Below, piece by piece: positions 9,651-18,280 of a DNA stretch of 64,000 nt; position 1 is the first letter of the stretch, and every line of letters starts with the position of its first letter. The notes under the pieces are model-generated. The model was not told the origin of the DNA. It was given only the letters and a program-made list of their open reading frames with translations, and did not search any database. Both the position numbers and the translations under genes were made by a program. Origin of the DNA: Rhodoplanes tepidamans (GTDB lineage Bacteria > Pseudomonadota > Alphaproteobacteria > Rhizobiales > Xanthobacteraceae); the NCBI RefSeq assembly GCF_030813915.1, contig NZ_JAUSUJ010000019.1:62001-126000 (forward strand), read 5' to 3'.

Positions 9651-9777
9651 CCGGGTGGCGGTGCGCTAGTGGGTGCGGTGCTTGGACCGTCGGCCGGGCG
9701 GGGCTGTCCCGTCGGTCGAACCGGCAGGGTGGCCGTCCGCGATGACAAGAGCAACCGACGATGGTGTGGGGCACGCC

Positions 9778-11091
9778 ATGCATGGCCCGCATGATGCTGC
9801 GCCGACGGGCGAATTGCGCCATGCCGGGTCCGCAGATCCGCCATCCTGGTTCACACGCGGTCGTGATCGGGTGTGGCTCCCCTATGCCCAGATGAAGACG
9901 GCGCCGCCGCCACTGCCGGTCGTGGCCACGAACGGCAGCCGCATCCGGCTCGCCGACGGGCGCGAGCTGGTCGACGGTGTCGCCTCGTGGTGGACGGCCT
10001 GCCACGGTTACAATCATCCGCATATGAGAATAGAGATCGCCCGTCAGCTGGAGACGATGCCGCATGTGATGCTGGGCGGGCTGCTGCACGAGCCGGCGGC
10101 GCGGCTGGCGGAGCGGCTCGCGGCGCTGCTGCCCGGCGATCTCGGTCGGGTGTTCTTCTCCGATTCGGGCTCGGTCGCCGTCGAGGTCGCCATGAAGATG
10201 GCGGTCCAGTACTGGATCAACAACGGCGTGCGCGGCCGGACGAAGTTCGTCGCGTTCCGGGGCGGCTATCACGGCGACACCACGGCCACCATGGCGGTGT
10301 GCGATCCGGACGAGGGCATGCACCGGCTGTTCAAGGGCCTGCTGCCCGAGCACCTGATCACCGACCTGCCGCGCGACGAGGCGACCACGGCGGCGCTCGA
10401 CCGGCTGCTCGGCGAGCGTGCCGACGCGATCGCCGGGATCCTGGTGGAGCCGCTGGTCCAGGGGGCCGGCGGCATGCTGTTCCACGACGCCGCGGTGCTG
10501 CGCCGCCTGCGCGCGCTCGCCGACCGCCACGGCACGCTGCTGATCTTCGACGAGGTGTTCACCGGCTTCGGCCGCACCGGATCCATGTTCGCCTGCGATG
10601 CGGCCGGCGTGGTGCCGGACATCGTCACCCTCGGCAAGGCGCTGTCGGGCGGCACCCTGCCGCTCGCCGCCACGGTGGCGAGCGAGCGCGTCTTCCGGGC
10701 CTTCTGGTCGGACGATCCCATGCAGGCGCTGATGCACGGGCCGACCTTCATGGGCAATGCGCTCGCCTGCGCCGCCGCCAATGCCTCGCTGGATCTCTTC
10801 GAGCGCGAGCCGCGGCTCGACCAGGTGAAGGCGATCGAGACGCAGATGACGGCCGGGCTGGCGCCGTGCCGCGGTCTCCCGAATGTCGTCGACGTGCGGG
10901 TGCGCGGTGCCATCGGAGTGGTCGAGCTGTCGACCATCGACATTCCCCGCCTCAAGGCGCGCTTCGTCGCCGAGGGCGTCTATGTCCGCCCGTTCGGACG
11001 GATCGTCTATCTCACGCCGGCCTTCACGATCGGCGCGGAGGATCTGGCCCGGCTCACCGGCGCCATCGTGACAGTGCTGAGCGAACCATGA
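9778..11091 (+). CDS. bioA: Adenosylmethionine-8-amino-7-oxononanoate aminotransferase
   Basis: This class III PLP aminotransferase of about 437 residues makes 7,8-diaminopelargonate. Family marks include the substrate segment DGVASWWTACHGYNHP, the glycine motif FRGGYHGDTTATM, the PLP aspartate in LLIFDEVFTGFGRTG and the Schiff-base lysine in VTLGKALSGG. The frame opens at 9673 and also has an ATG at 9742. I prefer 9778, although 20 or so residues still precede the conserved WLPYAQM stretch. It is divergent from bioF-bioD and overlaps panE by four bases (ATGA). Confidence 0.93.
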   Translation: MHGPHDAAPTGELRHAGSADPPSWFTRGRDRVWLPYAQMKTAPPPLPVVATNGSRIRLADGRELVDGVASWWTACHGYNHPHMRIEIARQLETMPHVMLGGLLHEPAARLAERLAALLPGDLGRVFFSDSGSVAVEVAMKMAVQYWINNGVRGRTKFVAFRGGYHGDTTATMAVCDPDEGMHRLFKGLLPEHLITDLPRDEATTAALDRLLGERADAIAGILVEPLVQGAGGMLFHDAAVLRRLRALADRHGTLLIFDEVFTGFGRTGSMFACDAAGVVPDIVTLGKALSGGTLPLAATVASERVFRAFWSDDPMQALMHGPTFMGNALACAAANASLDLFEREPRLDQVKAIETQMTAGLAPCRGLPNVVDVRVRGAIGVVELSTIDIPRLKARFVAEGVYVRPFGRIVYLTPAFTIGAEDLARLTGAIVTVLSEP

Positions 11092-11987
11092 CCGAGACTG
11101 CGTCCGGAACGCGCGTCGCCGTGATCGGCGGCGGCGCGATCGGCGGCCTGTTGGCCGCCCATCTCTGCGAGGCCGGGCACGCCGTGACCCTGTGCGTGCG
11201 CACGCCGTTCGAGCGGCTGGTGGTCGAGCGCGGCGGCCGGAGCGACACGGTTCCGGCCCGCATCGCCGCGACGCCCGGCGACGTGACGCCGGTGCCGTGG
11301 GTGCTGGTCACGGTGAAGTCGCAGGACACCGCGGCGGCCGGCCCGTGGCTCGCGGCGCTGTGCGGCCCCGGCACCACCGTGGTGGTGGTGCAGAACGGCA
11401 TCGGCCATGCCGAGCGGGTCGCGCCGTTCGTCGGCGGTGCGGCCGTGCTGCCGGCGCTGATCTATTCCGGGGTCGAGCGGGTCGCGGCCGGGCACATCCG
11501 CCTGCACACCGAGGGCCGAGTCACGGTGCCGGCCGGGCCGGTCGGCGAGGCCTTCGCGGCGCTGATGGCGGGCTCCGGCATCGCGGTCGCGCACGAGCCG
11601 GACTTCGTCACCGCGCTGTGGCGCAAGGTGCTGACCAATGTGGCGGCCAACCCGATCACCGCGCTGACGCTGCGCCGCATCGGCATCTTCCAGGACGACG
11701 AGGTGGCGGCGCTGGGCGAGACGCTGATCGCCGAGGCCGTCGCGGTCGGGCAGGCGGAGGGCGCGAAGATCGGCGCGGACGACGTCGCCCACACGCTCCA
11801 TCTGCACCGCACCTACAATCCGTCGACCGGCACCTCGATGCTGTACGACCGGCTCGCCGGCCGGCCGATGGAGCACGAGTTCATCACCGGCGCGGTGGTG
11901 CGCACGGCGGAGCGGCACGGCATCGCGGTGCCGTTCAACCGCGCGATCCTGACGCTGCTCAGGGCCCTCGATGCGGGACGGCCGTGA
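11088..11987 (+). CDS. panE: 2-dehydropantoate 2-reductase (ketopantoate reductase-like)
   Basis: This 299-residue NADP-dependent reductase has an N-terminal Rossmann motif (VAVIGGGAIGGLLAAHL) and the family stretch LVTVKSQDTAAA. The C-terminal helical domain carries the catalytic lysine region LWRKVLTNVAANPITAL and the NPSTGTSMLYD substrate loop. In the pantothenate pathway it would reduce ketopantoate to pantoate. It is coupled to bioA by an ATGA overlap, which puts coenzyme A and biotin steps in one transcript. The 3' end overlaps the convergent GNAT-like gene by 29 bp. Members of this family sometimes act on other 2-keto acids. Confidence 0.87.
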   Translation: MTETASGTRVAVIGGGAIGGLLAAHLCEAGHAVTLCVRTPFERLVVERGGRSDTVPARIAATPGDVTPVPWVLVTVKSQDTAAAGPWLAALCGPGTTVVVVQNGIGHAERVAPFVGGAAVLPALIYSGVERVAAGHIRLHTEGRVTVPAGPVGEAFAALMAGSGIAVAHEPDFVTALWRKVLTNVAANPITALTLRRIGIFQDDEVAALGETLIAEAVAVGQAEGAKIGADDVAHTLHLHRTYNPSTGTSMLYDRLAGRPMEHEFITGAVVRTAERHGIAVPFNRAILTLLRALDAGRP

Positions 11988-13140
11988 GGCCGCCGATCAG
12001 CTCGCTCCAGGATTCGCCGGCCAGTCCGGTCAGCATGGCGTCGCCGCGCGCGATGGCGTCGAGCACCTCCGGGTCGCGCGAATGCACCGTGGTGGCGCCG
12101 CGGTGCAGGATGACGCTGTTGGCGTAGAGCAGCGCCTCCATGATCGCCGGGTCGCTGCGCCCGACCAGGGCGGCGGCGCCGTGCGCATCGGCGTCGCGGA
12201 TCAGGCTGGCGACCACGGCGTCGGCGCCGCCGTCGCGCGCCAGCACCTGCAGCACATGGGCGAGGCCGTTGCGGCGGACGTGATAGACGAAGGCGCCGGC
12301 CGGCCCGGCGCGGTCGCTCACCACGGCGCCGACGAGCTCGCCGTAGGCCGGCAGGTGGGCCGCGTGGGCGAGCCGGCTGTCGAGCTGCGCCGCCGTCCAG
12401 GCCGGCGCCAGCGCGAAGCGCCGTACCAGCGCGGCGATCGCCGGTGCCAGCGCGGCGCGGTCGACTGGCGTCGTCACCACGCCGGCGGGTGCCGGCGGCA
12501 GCGCCCAGAAGACGCCGTCGACGCGGCGCGACACCAGCCGGTCGAGCCCGGAGGCGAGCGGGCTCAGCAGGGCGGCGCGCCGCCAGTGCGTCGCGGCGAG
12601 CGCCACGGCGGCGGCGGCCGGGCGCAGCAGGCGCACCCATTTCATGCTGTAGGCGGCGACCGACCGGCCGCCGAGGCGCGACCACAGCTTGCGCGACAGC
12701 GGGCTCGACGTCTCGCTGAACGACAGATCTTGCGGCCCGCCGACGAAGGAGCGCAGCAGCCGGGCGCCGGCGAGGTGATCGTGCGCCGGGTCGGCGACCA
12801 TCAGGCTGCAGGCGTGGGCGGCCCGGATCGACCGGCCGTTCACGACCATCGGCTGCGCCAGCGAGCCGATGAAGCCGGTGACGTCGCCGGCCGCGGTGGC
12901 GTGGACGAGCGACGGCGACGCCGGATCGTGATCCGGGCCGTCGAGAAAGAGGCGCTGGAGATAGGCGGCGACGATCTCGGTCGGCACGGCGTCGCCGGCC
13001 CGGAACGTCGACTTGAACAGCCGCGCCACCGCCGGCACGTCGGCCGCCGCGAGCGCACGGATCGCGGTGCGCGCCGCCTGCACGGCCGGGGCGGGAAGAT
13101 CGGTCGCCCGGCGCACCGGGGAGGACAGGGCCGTTCTCAT
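11959..13140 (-). CDS. GNAT-like acyltransferase, divergent from asnB cassette
   Basis: This is a 393-residue soluble protein. The first half reads like a GNAT N-acetyltransferase (AIRALAAADVPAVARLFKSTF, then strands and a VADPAHDHLAGARLLRSF segment similar to the acyl-CoA binding turn). The second half (AYGELVGAVVSDRAGPAGAFVYHVRR) could be a second, degenerate GNAT fold. I cannot assign a substrate. It faces away from the asnB-ACP-ligase-synthetase cassette across a shared 303-bp promoter region, so it may serve that pathway, for example as acceptor-side acyltransferase; this is inference. It overlaps panE tail to tail. Confidence 0.7.
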   Translation of the reverse strand: MRTALSSPVRRATDLPAPAVQAARTAIRALAAADVPAVARLFKSTFRAGDAVPTEIVAAYLQRLFLDGPDHDPASPSLVHATAAGDVTGFIGSLAQPMVVNGRSIRAAHACSLMVADPAHDHLAGARLLRSFVGGPQDLSFSETSSPLSRKLWSRLGGRSVAAYSMKWVRLLRPAAAAVALAATHWRRAALLSPLASGLDRLVSRRVDGVFWALPPAPAGVVTTPVDRAALAPAIAALVRRFALAPAWTAAQLDSRLAHAAHLPAYGELVGAVVSDRAGPAGAFVYHVRRNGLAHVLQVLARDGGADAVVASLIRDADAHGAAALVGRSDPAIMEALLYANSVILHRGATTVHSRDPEVLDAIARGDAMLTGLAGESWSELIGGLTAVPHRGP

Positions 13141-13443: not shown

Positions 13444-15429
13444 TTGTGCGGATTCGCCGGATATCTCGGACATGCCGATGCACCGCAGCCGCCGCGGCGG
13501 CTGCTCGCGCGGATGATCGACGCGGTGGCGCATCGCGGGCCGGACGCGAAGGGATTTCATGTCGAGGACGGCGTCGGGCTCGCCCATGCGCGCCTGAGCA
13601 TCCTGGATCTCGACGGCGGCGCCCAGCCGATGGCGGACGTCGACGGCGACCTCGTGATCAGCTTCAACGGGGAAATCTTCAACTATGTCGAGCTGCGTGC
13701 CGAGCTCCTGGCGCGCGGCGGCCGTTTCCGCACCGCCTCCGACACCGAGGTGATCCTCGAGGCGTATCGGGCCTGGGGCCCGGACTGCGTGGAGAAGCTC
13801 AACGGCGACTTCGCCTTCGCCCTGTGGGACCGGCGCCGCCGCCGGCTGATGCTGGCGCGCGACCGCGTCGGCGTGCGGCCGCTGTTCTACACGGCGCGTC
13901 CCGACGCGCTGTGGTTCGGCTCCGAGATCAAGGCGCTGCTCGCCGTGCCGGGCATCGACGCCGCGATCGACCCGGTCGCGCTCGACCAGGTGCTGACGCT
14001 GTGGGCTCCGCTGGCGCCGCGCACGATCTTCGCCGGCATCGACGAGCTGCCGCCCGGCCACGTGCTGCTCGCCGACCGCGACGGCGTCACGCTGCGGCCG
14101 TACTGGCGGCTGGAGTTTCCCGACGCCGACGACCACGCGGCGCTCGACCGCCGCGATCCGCGCGAGATCGCCGCCGAGCTGCGCGCGCTGCTCGACGACG
14201 CCACCCGCATCCGGCTGCGCGCCGACGTGCCGGTCGGCGCCTATCTGTCCGGTGGCCTCGACTCGGCGATCGTCACGGCGCTGATGAAGCGCCACGCGCC
14301 CGACCGCCTGGAGACCTTCTCGGTGGCCTTCGAGGACGCGGCGTTCGACGAGCGGCCGTTCCAGGAGACGATGGCGGCGGCGCTCGGCACCGCGCATCAC
14401 GTCGTGACCTGCGCGACCGCCGATATCGGCGAAGTGTTTCCCGCGGTCGTCGGCCATGCCGAGCGGCCGATGGTGCGCACCGGCCCGGCGCCGCTCTACG
14501 CGCTGTCGCGCCACGTACGCGAGCAGGGGCTCAAGGTGGTGCTCACCGGCGAGGGCGCCGACGAGATGTTCGCCGGCTACGACCTGTTCAAGGAGGCGAA
14601 GCTGCGCCGCTTCTGCGCCGCGCAGCCCGGCTCGCGGCGCCGGCCGCTGCTGCTGCAGCGCCTCTATCCGTACCTGCCGCAGCTCAAGGCGCAGTCGCAG
14701 CGCTATCGCGAGGCGTTCTTCCTCGGCACCGCCGACGATCTCGCCGACCCGCTGTTCTCGCATCTGCCGCGGGTGCGCACGCTGCGGGGGCTCGAGCAGT
14801 TCTACGCCGGCGACCTGCGCGCCGCGCTGGCCGGCCACGACGCGCTCGCCGCGCTGCGCGACCGGCTGCCGCCGGAGTTCGCGCGCTGGCACCCGCTGTC
14901 GCAGGCCCAGTATCTCGAGACGACGGTGCTGCTGCCCGGCTTCATCCTGTCGTCGCAGGGCGACCGGGTGTCGATGGCGCACGCGGTCGAGGGCCGCTAC
15001 CCGTTCCTCGATCCGCGGGTGATCGACTTCGCCACCCGGCTGCCGCCGCATCTCAAGCTGAAGGTGCTGCGCGAGAAGCACATCCTGCGCGAGGCGACGG
15101 CCGACCTGCTGCCCGCCGCGATCGCCACCCGGCCGAAGCAGCCCTACCGGGCGCCGGAGAGCGCCGCCGTCCTGCGGCCGCGCGCGGCCTGCGTCGACAC
15201 GGCGCTGGCGCCGGCGGCGCTCGCCGCGGCGGGGCTGTTCGACGCCGGCGCGGTCGCGAAGCTCGTCCGCAAATGCGAGACGGCGCCGGCGCCGGGCGCC
15301 CGCGACAACGCCGCGCTGATCGGCATCCTCTCCACCCAGATTCTCCACGGCCGCTTCGTGCGACGGGCGGCCGCCGATTCATCTTCCGCAACAGACCGGG
15401 CCAGAGTCCATGCCGTCCTCCCGCCGTGA
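13444..15429 (+). CDS. Glutamine-dependent asparagine synthetase-family amidotransferase
   Basis: This 661-residue class II glutamine amidotransferase is of the AsnB type. The start is TTG, which places the catalytic cysteine at residue 2 (MCGFAGYLG). The glutaminase domain shows RGPDAKG and SFNGEIFNYVEL. The synthetase domain has the PP-loop YLSGGLDSAIV and the VLTGEGADEMFAGYD motif. It can hydrolyse glutamine and transfer ammonia to an adenylated carboxylate. It overlaps the ACP gene by 20 bp and leads a cassette with an AMP ligase and an NAD-synthase-like enzyme. Together with that context, the long C-terminal part suggests a specialised amidotransferase rather than housekeeping asparagine synthesis. 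Similar enzymes occur in polysaccharide and exosortase loci. Confidence 0.88.
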   Translation: MCGFAGYLGHADAPQPPRRLLARMIDAVAHRGPDAKGFHVEDGVGLAHARLSILDLDGGAQPMADVDGDLVISFNGEIFNYVELRAELLARGGRFRTASDTEVILEAYRAWGPDCVEKLNGDFAFALWDRRRRRLMLARDRVGVRPLFYTARPDALWFGSEIKALLAVPGIDAAIDPVALDQVLTLWAPLAPRTIFAGIDELPPGHVLLADRDGVTLRPYWRLEFPDADDHAALDRRDPREIAAELRALLDDATRIRLRADVPVGAYLSGGLDSAIVTALMKRHAPDRLETFSVAFEDAAFDERPFQETMAAALGTAHHVVTCATADIGEVFPAVVGHAERPMVRTGPAPLYALSRHVREQGLKVVLTGEGADEMFAGYDLFKEAKLRRFCAAQPGSRRRPLLLQRLYPYLPQLKAQSQRYREAFFLGTADDLADPLFSHLPRVRTLRGLEQFYAGDLRAALAGHDALAALRDRLPPEFARWHPLSQAQYLETTVLLPGFILSSQGDRVSMAHAVEGRYPFLDPRVIDFATRLPPHLKLKVLREKHILREATADLLPAAIATRPKQPYRAPESAAVLRPRAACVDTALAPAALAAAGLFDAGAVAKLVRKCETAPAPGARDNAALIGILSTQILHGRFVRRAAADSSSATDRARVHAVLPP

Positions 15430-15676
15430 CAAGATCCGTGATTTCATCCGCGACAATTTCCTGTTCCGCGAAGACCTGGAGGCGATCGCCGACGGCGACT
15501 CGCTGCTCGATCTCGGGCTGATCGACTCGACCGGCATCCTCGAGCTCGTCGCCTTCCTCGAGCAGGACTTCGGGCTGGCGATCGCCGACGCCGACATCGT
15601 CCCGGAGAATCTCGACTCGATCGACCGCATCGCGGCCTTCGTCGAGGTGAAGCTCGCCACGGCGCGCGCGGCCTGA
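15410..15676 (+). CDS. Stand-alone acyl carrier protein
   Basis: This 88-residue carrier protein has the typical four-helix pattern and the phosphopantetheine attachment serine in LGLIDSTGILELVAFLE, at about residue 42. It is not the fatty acid synthase AcpP: it sits inside the asnB cassette and its helix II sequence is different. Its start lies 20 bp inside the asnB frame, which indicates translational coupling. Its likely role is to hold the carboxylate activated by the ligase encoded 31 bp downstream. It needs a phosphopantetheinyl transferase from elsewhere. Confidence 0.88.
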   Translation: MPSSRRDKIRDFIRDNFLFREDLEAIADGDSLLDLGLIDSTGILELVAFLEQDFGLAIADADIVPENLDSIDRIAAFVEVKLATARAA

Positions 15677-15707
15677 CCGGGGCCTGACAGCACAGCGGGA
15701 CACATCC

Positions 15708-17252
15708 ATGCGGGTCGAGACCTTCCTGAGCGCGAGCGCCGCCCGGCGGCCCGACAAGGTCGCGCTGGTCGCCGGCGAGCGGCGGCTGACCTGGCGGGAT
15801 CTCGACCGCGCCTCCGACCGGCTCGCCGGCGCGCTGGCGGCGCACGGCATCCGGCGCGGCGACCGCGTCGTCGTGTTCATGGACAACTGCGCCGAGGCCG
15901 TGGTCGCGATCTTCGCGATCCTCAAGGCCGGCGGCGTGTTCAGCCCGATCCACCCGTCGACCAAGGCCGACAAGCTCGCCTACGTGCTGAACAACTGCCG
16001 GGCCGCCGGGCTGGTCACGCTCGGCCGGCTCGCCCGCGTCGCCGCGGCCGCGCTGGCGCAGGCGCCGGCCGTCGGGACCGTGATGGTGGCCGAGCCGCGC
16101 GACGGCGCGCCGCCGTCCTGGCTGCGCTACGATGCGGCGCTGTCGGCCGACGCGGCGCCGCCGCCCGCACCGGGCATCGCCCTCGACCTCGCCATGCTGA
16201 TCTACACCTCGGGCACCACCGGCAGGCCCAAGGGCGTGATGATGACCCACCAGAACATGCTGGCGGCGGCGGGCGCGGTCGCCGCCTGCATCGACAGCCG
16301 CGAGGACGACGTGATCCTCAGCGTGCTGCCGCTGTCGTTCAATTACGGGCTCTATCAGGTGTTCCTGGCGGCGCGCTCCGGCGCCACGCTGGTGCTGGAG
16401 AAGTCGTTCGCCTTCCCGCAGGCCGTGGTGCAGCGGATCGCGGCGGAGCGGGCCACCGTCTTCCCGCTGGTGCCGACCATCGCGGCGCTGCTCCTGCAGC
16501 TGAAGGATCTGAAGACCGGCGACCTGCCGACGCTGCGCACCTTCACCAACACGGCGGCGGCGCTGCCGATCGGCCATATCCTGCGGCTGCGCACCCTGTT
16601 CCCGGCGGCGCGGCTGCATTCCATGTACGGGCTCACCGAGTGCAAGCGCTGCACCTGGCTGCCGCCCGACGAGCTGATGCGCCGGCCCGACTCGGTCGGC
16701 GTCGCGCTGCCCGGCACCGAGGTGTGGGTGGCCGACGAGACCGGCGCGCCGCTGCCGCCCGGCGAGGTCGGCGAGCTGGTGGTGCGCGGGCCGCACGTGA
16801 TGCAGGGCTACTGGGACGATCCCGCCGCGACCGCCAGGGCGCTGCGGCCGGGGCCGTATCCGTGGGAGCGGGTGCTGCACACCGGCGACCTGTTCCGGGC
16901 CGACGCCGAGGGCTTTTTCTACTTCGTCGCCCGCAAGGACGACATCATCAAGTCGCGCGGCGAGAAGGTGAGCCCGCAGGAGGTCGAGCGGGCGCTGCAT
17001 GCGCTGCCCGGCGTGCGCGAGGCCGCGGTGCTCGGCGTCGACGATCCGATCCTCGGCCAGGCCGTGAAGGCGATCGTGGTCGCCGCGCCGGGCGCGCTGA
17101 CGGCCCAGGACGTGATCCGCCACTGCGCCCGCGTGCTCGAGGACGTGATGGTGCCGAAGCACGTCGAGTTCCGCGACGCGCTGCCGAAGCTCGACAACGG
17201 AAAGATCGACCGCCGCGCGCTCGCGGCCCCGCTCATGGACGCCGCCGAATGA
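15708..17252 (+). CDS. AMP-forming acyl/aminoacyl ligase
   Basis: This 514-residue adenylate-forming enzyme of the ANL superfamily contains the P-loop motif MLIYTSGTTGRPKGVMMTH (about residue 163 on), the A5 region SMYGLTECKR, the A7 aspartate in LHTGDLF and the A10 lysine in KLDNGKIDRRAL. It probably adenylates a carboxylic acid and loads it on the ACP encoded just upstream. The substrate cannot be read from sequence. The stop overlaps the next gene by ATGA. Comparable ligases accompany asparagine-synthetase-like and ACP genes in exosortase-associated loci, but no exosortase is seen here. Confidence 0.85.
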   Translation: MRVETFLSASAARRPDKVALVAGERRLTWRDLDRASDRLAGALAAHGIRRGDRVVVFMDNCAEAVVAIFAILKAGGVFSPIHPSTKADKLAYVLNNCRAAGLVTLGRLARVAAAALAQAPAVGTVMVAEPRDGAPPSWLRYDAALSADAAPPPAPGIALDLAMLIYTSGTTGRPKGVMMTHQNMLAAAGAVAACIDSREDDVILSVLPLSFNYGLYQVFLAARSGATLVLEKSFAFPQAVVQRIAAERATVFPLVPTIAALLLQLKDLKTGDLPTLRTFTNTAAALPIGHILRLRTLFPAARLHSMYGLTECKRCTWLPPDELMRRPDSVGVALPGTEVWVADETGAPLPPGEVGELVVRGPHVMQGYWDDPAATARALRPGPYPWERVLHTGDLFRADAEGFFYFVARKDDIIKSRGEKVSPQEVERALHALPGVREAAVLGVDDPILGQAVKAIVVAAPGALTAQDVIRHCARVLEDVMVPKHVEFRDALPKLDNGKIDRRALAAPLMDAAE

Positions 17253-18280
17253 CCACGCCGCTCCGCCAGCACGCCATCGACGATGTCCCGGCCGGGCCGG
17301 ACGGCGCCGCGCCGCCGTTCTCGGCCGCCGTGCTCGCCATCGACGCGGCCGCCGAGACGGCCCGCATCGCCGCCGCGATCGAGACCCAGGTGCTGCGCAC
17401 GCTGCGCAGGCGCGGCGTCGTGCTCGGCCTGTCGGGCGGCATCGACTCGAGCGTCACGGCGGCGCTGTGCGTCCGCGCCCTCGGCCCCGGCCGCGTGCTC
17501 GGCGTGCTGATGCCGGAACGCGACTCCGACCCCGACAGCCTGCGGCTCGGCCGCGCGCTCGCCGAGACGCTCGGCATCGCGACCGTGGTCGAGGACATCG
17601 CCCCGATGCTCGACGCGGCCGGCTGCTACGCCCGGCGCGACGCGCTGATCCGGACGCTGGTGCCGGAGTTCGGCGACGGCTGGGGCTGCAAGGTGGTGAT
17701 CGCCGCGGCCGCCGACGGCGCGCCCTACAGCCTCACCGCGCTGGTCGTGCAGGCGCCGGACGGCGAGCAGCGCAAGCTCCGCCTGCCGCTCGACGCCTAT
17801 CTCGGCCTCGTCGCCGCCACCAACATGAAGCAGCGGACGCGCAAGCAGCTCGAATACTTCCACGCCGACCGGCTGAACCGCGCCGTCGCCGGCACGCCCA
17901 ACCGGCTCGAATACGACCAGGGCTTCTTCGTCAAGAACGGCGACGGCGCCGCCGACCTCAAGCCGATCGCGCATCTCTACAAGACCCAGGTTTACGCGCT
18001 CGCCGCCCATCTCGGCGTGCCCGACGAGATCCGCCGCCGCCCGCCGACCACCGACACCTGGTCGCTCGCCCAGACCCAGGAGGAGTTCTACTTCGCGCTG
18101 CCCTGGGACCGCATGGATCTCTGCCTCTACGCCCTGAACCACGCCGTCCCGGCCGCGGTCGCCGCCCCGGCGGTCGGCCTCGCGCCCGACCAGATCGCGC
18201 GCGTCTGGCGCGACATCGCCTCGAAGCGCCGCGTCGCCGCCTACCTGCACTCTCCGCCGCTGCTGGTGGAGGAGGTGTAG
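17249..18280 (+). CDS. NAD-synthase-like ATP pyrophosphatase (amide ligase)
   Basis: This 343-residue protein has an N-type ATP pyrophosphatase motif, VVLGLSGGIDSSVTAALC, and the family segments AATNMKQRTRK and the TDTWSLAQTQEEFYFALPW region of NadE. It lacks the nitrilase-type glutaminase domain of long NAD synthetases. It also carries an insertion of about 45 residues between the ATP loop half and the TNMKQR motif. The context (asnB, ACP, AMP ligase) and this insert suggest that it amidates or ligates a pathway-specific carboxylate rather than making NAD. A role as NH3-dependent NAD synthetase cannot be excluded, since no other nadE is in view. Confidence 0.78.
   Translation: MTTPLRQHAIDDVPAGPDGAAPPFSAAVLAIDAAAETARIAAAIETQVLRTLRRRGVVLGLSGGIDSSVTAALCVRALGPGRVLGVLMPERDSDPDSLRLGRALAETLGIATVVEDIAPMLDAAGCYARRDALIRTLVPEFGDGWGCKVVIAAAADGAPYSLTALVVQAPDGEQRKLRLPLDAYLGLVAATNMKQRTRKQLEYFHADRLNRAVAGTPNRLEYDQGFFVKNGDGAADLKPIAHLYKTQVYALAAHLGVPDEIRRRPPTTDTWSLAQTQEEFYFALPWDRMDLCLYALNHAVPAAVAAPAVGLAPDQIARVWRDIASKRRVAAYLHSPPLLVEEV

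Follow-up and report, generated by a model that had tools for sequence, protein, structure and literature searches.

Related systems and the locus studied

In Porphyromonas, the AsnB relative WbpS produces a uronamide. VimE is a putative deacetylase, and the GNAT-like protein VimA was inferred to place serine or glycine on the freed amine (PMC7468200). The tandem GNAT HfsK of Caulobacter was suggested to acylate amines freed by HfsH (PMC5362036), and in the cispentacin pathway the free ligase AmcH loads 2-oxoglutarate on the free acyl carrier protein (ACP) AmcB (PMC10698177). Here we analysed a 64,000-nucleotide stretch of DNA from Rhodoplanes tepidamans (contig NZ_JAUSUJ010000019.1, positions 62,001 to 126,000; this whole stretch is called the window), which carries adjoining genes for an AsnB-type amidotransferase, a free ACP, an adenylate-forming ligase and a NadE-like amide ligase, with a GNAT-like gene divergent from them. 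The cassette is a real, widespread and conserved functional unit, shared by many bacteria of soil and root nodules, and the GNAT-like gene belongs to it as a fifth member. It may best be read as an ACP-dependent analogue of the Porphyromonas Wbp/Vim sugar decoration, which would place it within known sugar-decoration chemistry, its unusual feature being the carrier-protein step. Taken together, the precedents of Wbp/Vim, HfsK/HfsH and AmcH/AmcB lead us to propose that an amidated group is carried by the ACP and delivered to an amino sugar.

The Wbp/Vim systems of Porphyromonas gingivalis and Tannerella forsythia likewise combine an AsnB-type amidotransferase, a GNAT-like transferase and a putative polysaccharide deacetylase, the last of which is found in some cassette loci, and give an amidated, aminoacylated amino sugar. 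The available part of that report states no carriage of the amino acid by an ACP, whereas the cassette adds the ACP, the ligase, the NadE-like enzyme and, in 26 of 84 loci, a methyltransferase; the Porphyromonas authors remarked on similar gene sets at exosortase loci (PMC7468200). The XrtA/PEP-CTERM loci are close in another respect, as their model TIGR03098 is the top match of the cassette ligase and TIGR03108 the second match of AsnB, and one cassette locus (L158) sits among XrtA-type relatives. However, the cassette scores lie below the curated cut-offs in both the window and L158, and the cassette has a NadE-like gene and a tandem GNAT in addition; the 2006 PEP-CTERM paper makes no mention of an amidotransferase, asparagine, a ligase or an acyl carrier (PMC1569441). 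HfsK is paired with a polysaccharide deacetylase, as is the tandem GNAT in cassette loci such as L117, but the accessible text on HfsK describes no linked ACP, ligase or amidating enzymes (PMC5362036), and the cassette GNAT is likened to it by fold and not by sequence. AmcH and AmcB share with the cassette a free-standing ligase and a free ACP; ketosynthase-like genes are missing from the cassette. Finally, the ACP SMb20651 and the ligase SMb20650 of Sinorhizobium meliloti are very likely orthologous to those of the cassette, by an inferred locus-tag match. A description of the cassette as a unit was not found in the literature searched. A model reading of the DNA by itself (below, the sequence-only reading) had suggested that the pathway may be undescribed, a word which must be limited to that literature because S. 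meliloti studies very likely already cover two of the genes.

Gene layout and family assignment

The five genes have the following positions in the window:

13444-15429, plus strand: AsnB-type glutamine amidotransferase/synthetase, 661 amino acids, TTG start; TIGR01536
15410-15676, plus strand: free ACP, 88 amino acids; PF00550; phosphopantetheine Ser in the motif IDSTG
15708-17252, plus strand: class I adenylate-forming ligase, 514 amino acids; PF00501; adenylation domains of non-ribosomal peptide synthetases (NRPS) are its top PDB matches
17249-18280, plus strand: NadE-like amide ligase of the ammonia-dependent type (PRK00876), 343 amino acids; NF002048
11959-13140, minus strand: tandem-GNAT acyltransferase by fold model, fifth cassette member, 393 amino acids; divergent from asnB

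By the list of open reading frames (ORFs) of the window, the AsnB and ACP frames overlap by 20 bases, a gap of 31 bases separates the ACP from the ligase, and the ligase and nadE-like genes join in an ATGA overlap, with the NadE-like ATG at 17249 and the end of its ORF at 18280. The overlapping or nearly touching arrangement given by the sequence-only reading was thus exact to the base. Its family calls (glutamine amidotransferase, free ACP, adenylating ligase, NadE-like enzyme) agree with the Pfam and NCBIfam searches, and the divergent GNAT-like gene that it described was found as the ORF at 11959-13140 on the minus strand, with a tandem-GNAT fold by model. The TTG start codon of asnB immediately precedes the codon of the catalytic Cys2. 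A promoter and terminator scan gave nothing exceeding shuffled sequence.

AsnB scored 505.5 bits against TIGR01536 (cut-off 267.1), and its second-best NCBIfam model was the XrtA amidotransferase TIGR03108 at 459.7 bits, below the cut-off of 816.9. The ACP matched the PP-binding domain PF00550 with 25.5 bits (cut-off 20.8) and only weakly the ornithine-lipid ACP model (OlsHI, NF052616; 51.3 bits, cut-off 130) and the cispentacin AmcB model (NF058660; 42.2 bits, cut-off 80). For the ligase, the AMP-binding domain PF00501 gave 335 bits, and the best NCBIfam model was the XrtA ligase TIGR03098 with 453.4 bits, below its cut-off of 592.35. Direct membership of the cassette proteins in the XrtA, AmcB or OlsHI families was rejected on these scores below the curated cut-offs. 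The NadE-like protein was above the cut-off for the PRK00876 subfamily of NAD(+) synthases (NF002048, 512.9 bits, cut-off 313) and also for TIGR00552, and a Pfam profile search found no glutaminase domain in it. Its structure model, with a predicted local distance difference test (pLDDT) score of 85.4, has the fold of ammonia-dependent NAD synthetases and matches 2e18 and other NAD synthetases. An extra conserved insert of the family, spanning approximately residues 123-186, coincides with a break in the PDB alignments, and the family has invariant residues of its own besides.

Inheritance of the cassette as one unit

When a single genome of each species was scanned, at least 572 stretches encoded a NadE-like relative; the best 80 of them were examined, so that counts lean to close relatives. 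The 84 loci compared here are the window, L036, L039, L043 and L044-L123; they do not include L035, L037, L038 and L040 (repeats of L102, L045, L044 and L049) or two loci on Sinorhizobium plasmids, L041 and L042. All four genes were linked in 67 of the 84 loci, the ACP, ligase and NadE-like genes in 14, and partial sets in 3. Among 60 genomes, NF002048 was above cut-off in 7, the window's own included, and the same 7 and no others carried a ligase of at least 50% identity and an AsnB of at least 49% identity; outside these genomes, ligase matches reached no more than 43% and AsnB matches no more than 47%, the latter over just 383 residues. This co-occurrence gives a Fisher value of 2.6e-9, without correction for kinship, which all Fisher tests here ignore. 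Across the phylum, NF002048 was found in 12 of 299 genomes, and of 7 regions fetched 6 had the complete set of four, while the seventh, L162 (identical with L068), lacked a linked AsnB. Recurrence of the four-gene unit across the order and the phylum is therefore more than chance. The sequence-only reading had proposed a single cassette, to be checked by gene order in other genomes, and the linkage in 67 loci bears this out; the independence of the genes in relatives, which it had named as a refuting outcome, did not occur and was rejected, as NadE-like protein, ligase and AsnB were held by the same 7 genomes.

The 14 loci without a linked AsnB might suggest that AsnB is dispensable. This was rejected, since an AsnB ortholog was present elsewhere in 12 of 12 such genomes searched, with 56-60% identity for the main matches; among the 14 loci, L116 ends at a contig edge and L068 was outside this ortholog search. 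A second architecture, in the order NadE-AsnB-ligase-ACP, was found in L039, L100, L161 and L163. In L161, a 918-amino-acid protein with AMP-binding and thioesterase parts is encoded immediately upstream of the NadE-like gene (L161:2359-5115); L163 has a second ligase homolog at the same site.

The catalytic motifs were counted over 98 supplied loci (L068 and L162 being the same), requiring at least 45% identity for AsnB, at least 40% for the ligase and at least 60% query coverage for all. The ATP-pyrophosphatase loop SGG[IV]DS was present in 92 of 92 NadE-like proteins, the carrier motif DST in 90 of 90 ACPs and the lysine of the C-terminal domain in 87 of 87 ligases. AsnB had its SGGLDS-type ATP loop and the acidic site GEG[AS]DE in 80 of 80, barring one substituted glycine, and the glutaminase residue Cys2 in 78 of 80, the remaining two being gaps. 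Judged by these conserved motifs, each enzyme should therefore be active. The NadE-like protein is probably a repurposed relative of NAD synthetase. A role as the only NAD synthetase of the genome, the other refuting outcome named beforehand, was rejected, because contig C7 of the same genome carries a separate NAD synthetase gene (589-amino-acid ORF, PF02540, 242.2 bits).

Several cassettes depart from the common pattern or carry doubtful labels. That of Devosia crocina (L097) has no ligase homolog within reach, and in L105 the ligase lies upstream on the opposite strand; one genome of the order (G548) holds two NadE-like gene copies, on contigs C77 and C37. In its identities to the window, the cassette in a record titled Bacillus subtilis SK6B4 (L080) resembles that of Pseudochrobactrum sp. 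sp1633 (L084), probably through mislabelling or contamination of the record. A binning error probably explains L077, a 6-kb contig assigned to Armatimonadetes whose cassette NadE-like gene is 68% identical to the window's.

The GNAT-like fifth member

The GNAT-like protein had no Pfam or NCBIfam match. Its structure model (pLDDT 87.9) and the PDB neighbours show a tandem-GNAT fold with two GNAT domains, as in HfsK; the neighbours were Eis (Z about 20) and N-myristoyltransferase (Z about 19). FemX was not among the structural matches listed, which Eis and N-myristoyltransferase fill, and nothing is excluded by this. In 70 of the 84 loci, the window counted, a homolog of the gene was found no more than 2 kb from the cassette, as against none of 40 control stretches, which were arbitrarily chosen positions in long-contig genomes, partly other genomes than those of the 84 loci, with no formal random draw. 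Its placement in these 70 was downstream convergent in 44, upstream on the same strand in 21 and upstream divergent in 5, so that the association was either remade or kept through rearrangements. Given this frequency in three arrangements, the gene is therefore a fifth member of the cassette. It lay 2-10 kb away in 4 further loci and was not detected in 10, 5 of which have short flanks. The distant matches in L074 and L109 (28-30% identity) may represent a second GNAT of a polysaccharide locus.

Polysaccharide and methyltransferase genes around related cassettes

Clustering of neighbouring ORFs, antisense ORFs included, with families then singled out by profile search, gave as recurrent neighbours a HemK/PrmC-type methyltransferase, Wzz, Wzy, Wzx, an HfsH-like deacetylase and glycosyltransferases. 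At least three of six polysaccharide families were present in 19 of the 84 loci versus none of the 40 controls (Fisher 0.0003). Cassettes adjoining polysaccharide genes were usually accompanied by the HfsH-like deacetylase, which in L117 scored 164.2 bits against the HfsH model, below the cut-off of 400. Among 247 genomes of the order, the Wzy family occurred in 7 of 21 NadE-like-positive versus 22 of 226 negative genomes (expected 2.5; P = 0.005). Of six genomes fetched in which AsnB is not linked to the cassette, three (L140, L141, L143) had it bordering a locus with Wzz, Wzy and the deacetylase, and L145 had it beside a glycosyltransferase; in L142 and L144 none of the query families was nearby. 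In L158, from another family of the phylum, the four genes are surrounded by chain-length, kinase, porin and ATPase genes related to those of XrtA-type loci, all scoring below curated cut-offs; no exosortase was among the matches listed for ten L158 proteins, no exosortase model having been run on the window or genome.

The methyltransferase was found in no control stretch, compared with the 26 of 84 loci mentioned above. Its NPPY motif was present in 29 of 29 proteins, and its PDB matches were N5-glutamine methyltransferases, and methylation of the amide is therefore a reasonable guess. The L098 protein scored 181.3 bits against PrmC (TIGR03534), under the cut-off of 199.1, and 150 against the HemK family (TIGR00536), over the cut-off of 115.5, and left the first 52 of 253 PrmC model positions unmatched.

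In a locus starting about 10 kb from the cassette, S. meliloti ml46 carries a GNAT, the methyltransferase, Wzx, a second GNAT, Wzz, Wzy, a deacetylase and two glycosyltransferases. The second GNAT, beside Wzx (L164:25870-27018), is 30% identical to that of the window, and the gene following a glycosyltransferase in this locus is annotated as a glycoside hydrolase. Large ORFs in two other polysaccharide loci (L117:11017-13455 and L104:15612-17801) had no Pfam match. By neighbour clustering, an ABC-transporter ATPase adjoins the cassette in 13 loci.

The ligase substrate and the Sinorhizobium meliloti genes

The eight best sequence matches of the ligase in the PDB were peptide synthetases, namely NRPS amino-acid adenylation domains, and the first fatty-acid ligase came ninth; the comparison residue by residue covered five near-identical gramicidin synthase entries. 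In NRPS adenylation domains, an Asp at position A4 holds the amino group of the substrate. Among 87 cassette ligases this position was Asp in 60; the others had Gly (19), Asn (4), Thr (3) or Ser (1). These residues suggest that most lineages may use an amino acid, and that of the window a related acid.

The pSymB replicon of S. meliloti carries the four-gene cassette in strains 1021 (L042) and ml46 (L164). SMb20651 was reportedly named in a 2009 paper. On pSymB, SMb20650 and SMb20651 are described as a cotranscribed ligase-ACP pair; SMb20650, a predicted long-chain ligase, acylates the ACP SMb20651 in Escherichia coli and cannot replace FadD (PMC7232532), and in 2017 the function of SMb20651 was said to require more study (PMC5686131). 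Since pSymB has both the cassette and this pair, the two are very likely the cassette ligase and ACP; we infer the identity because the strain 1021 record is unannotated. AsnB of strain ml46 is in two pieces in different frames (L164:7253-9185) with no AsnB gene listed, and strain 1021 gives one full-length match.

Proposed pathway and competing explanations

We tentatively propose, with a confidence just short of even, that the five genes form an ACP-dependent pathway for decorating a surface polysaccharide: an acyl group, in many cases an aminoacyl group, would be built in amidated form and attached to an amino sugar of the polymer. In this pathway, the ligase would adenylate an acid and load it on the holo-ACP; most lineages would presumably use an amino acid for this, and the present one a close analogue. 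The glutamine-fed AsnB and the NadE-like enzyme, with no glutaminase domain, would each convert a carboxylate to an amide; the ACP-bound acid may be the substrate of one of them and a uronic acid of the sugar that of the other, in the manner of WbpS. Where present, the HemK/PrmC-type NPPY enzyme would, from its family, N-methylate the amide. The HfsH-like deacetylase of the polysaccharide locus would free an amine, to which the tandem GNAT would transfer the ACP-bound group. A more specific version, which we consider possible but rather unlikely to hold throughout, is that a NAD-synthetase relative has been turned into a carrier-protein amide ligase: an amino acid or a dicarboxylic acid would be loaded on the ACP by the NRPS-like ligase and amidated by AsnB and the NadE-like enzyme, the HemK/PrmC-type enzyme would N-methylate the amide in some lineages, and the tandem GNAT would decorate an amino sugar of a surface polysaccharide with the group. 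If true, an acyl decoration of polysaccharide would be borne by an ACP and not by transfer RNA or coenzyme A.

The general idea of the sequence-only reading, an acid activated on the ACP, amidated and passed on, is sustained in so far as the ACP, the ligase and two enzymes of amide-forming families are united in one unit and the likely ortholog SMb20650 acylates an ACP (PMC7232532); a free small amide as its outcome has become less likely. That reading also held the product not to be predictable from the neighbours, which remains so for the window, without any of the query families, and no longer for some relatives, which show Wzx/Wzy and an HfsH-like deacetylase, often with the methyltransferase.

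Several observations weigh against a polysaccharide product. None of the seven query families, the deacetylase included, was found in the window, so that no deacetylase adjoins the transferase as it does in other cassette loci and in Wbp/Vim, and none was found in a 19-kb stretch (L146) that ends 2 kb into the window. The genome had no match to the Wzy query, its methyltransferase matches reached at most 35% identity with no close one, and its best score against the HfsH model was 24.8 bits, far from that of the L117 deacetylase; it does hold Wzz genes away from the window, on contigs C1 and C27. Fewer than three polysaccharide families were within reach in 65 of the 84 loci (9 of the 84 are under 15 kb), and this Wzy family was lacking in 14 of the 21 NadE-like-positive genomes of the order, the window's among them. 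No GNAT was within reach in the four loci of the second architecture, and the ligase-thioesterase protein of L161 fits a released product. On the ligase, long-chain fatty-acid ligase models (398.6 bits, second in NCBIfam) outranked the amino-acid adenylation model (288.8), both below their cut-offs, and the residue at A4 is Asn in the window and other than Asp in 27 of the 87 ligases; an amino acid is therefore doubtful as the substrate of the window ligase. Finally, HfsK and its paralogs were reported to have no effect on holdfast binding of Hirschia in the assay used (PMC8449245).

Some of these points would suit a free secreted small amide, a serious rival that we nevertheless rate as unlikely. 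Here the ACP-loaded acid would be amidated, maybe methylated, and released by the GNAT onto a small amine or by a thioesterase as the free amide. A free ACP with an NRPS-like ligase, the second architecture with its ligase-thioesterase protein, and a window without polysaccharide genes are all consistent with it, and the fungal SoaC is described as a dedicated AsnB-type amide synthetase acting on a small acid (PMC13284220). The recurrent linkage to Wzx/Wzy, compared with none of the 40 controls, argues the other way, as do the recurrent neighbour families profiled, which were polysaccharide genes and the methyltransferase (the ABC-transporter ATPase is one of the families outside this profiling). 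Because a Wzx/Wzy locus, an HfsH-like deacetylase and the methyltransferase accompany the cassette in some relatives, a polysaccharide substituent appears more likely than a free small amide.

A fatty-acyl product is improbable in our view. The ligase would load a fatty acid on the ACP, the GNAT would move it to a lipid, protein or sugar amine, and AsnB and the NadE-like enzyme would amidate the head group. The acylation of an ACP by the likely ortholog SMb20650, a predicted long-chain ligase, points in this direction, although the same protein does not substitute for FadD (PMC7232532). The second rank of the long-chain fatty-acid ligase models, at 398.6 bits below their cut-off, is set against eight peptide synthetases ahead of any fatty-acid ligase in the PDB. 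The match of the GNAT model to N-myristoyltransferase loses force as the fold is common to acetyltransferases such as Eis; the weak resemblance of the ACP to the ornithine-lipid model (51.3 bits, cut-off 130) also belongs on this side. Very improbable is ordinary metabolism, with additional asparagine and NAD synthetases lying by chance beside an ACP and a ligase. The family names, with AsnB above TIGR01536 and the NadE-like protein above TIGR00552, and the intact catalytic motifs examined would agree with it, but the genome has a separate NAD synthetase, the unit is inherited whole, and an insert and particular invariant residues set the NadE-like family apart.

Should the proposed decoration of an amino sugar through an ACP be right, several annotations would change. 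Public records label such genes 'NAD(+) synthase' and 'asparagine synthase', and the genes so labelled may do neither; the annotation of NAD and asparagine metabolism would be corrected, and the S. meliloti ACP SMb20651 would be assigned a function. Many of the examined NadE-like-bearing stretches (best 80 of at least 572) come from plant symbionts, and the pathway would provide a polysaccharide modification that could influence attachment or symbiosis.

Other neighbouring genes and distant relatives

The surroundings of the cassette in the window include bioA, identified by profile, and a RimO-like gene, recognised by eye. The bioA-type gene (9673-11091) lies upstream of the cassette here and likewise in the nearest relative (L038, 81% identity), and looks like a genus-level neighbour outside the pathway. 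Far from the phylum, a PRK00876 (NF002048) match above cut-off was found in the archaeon Methanosarcina acetivorans.

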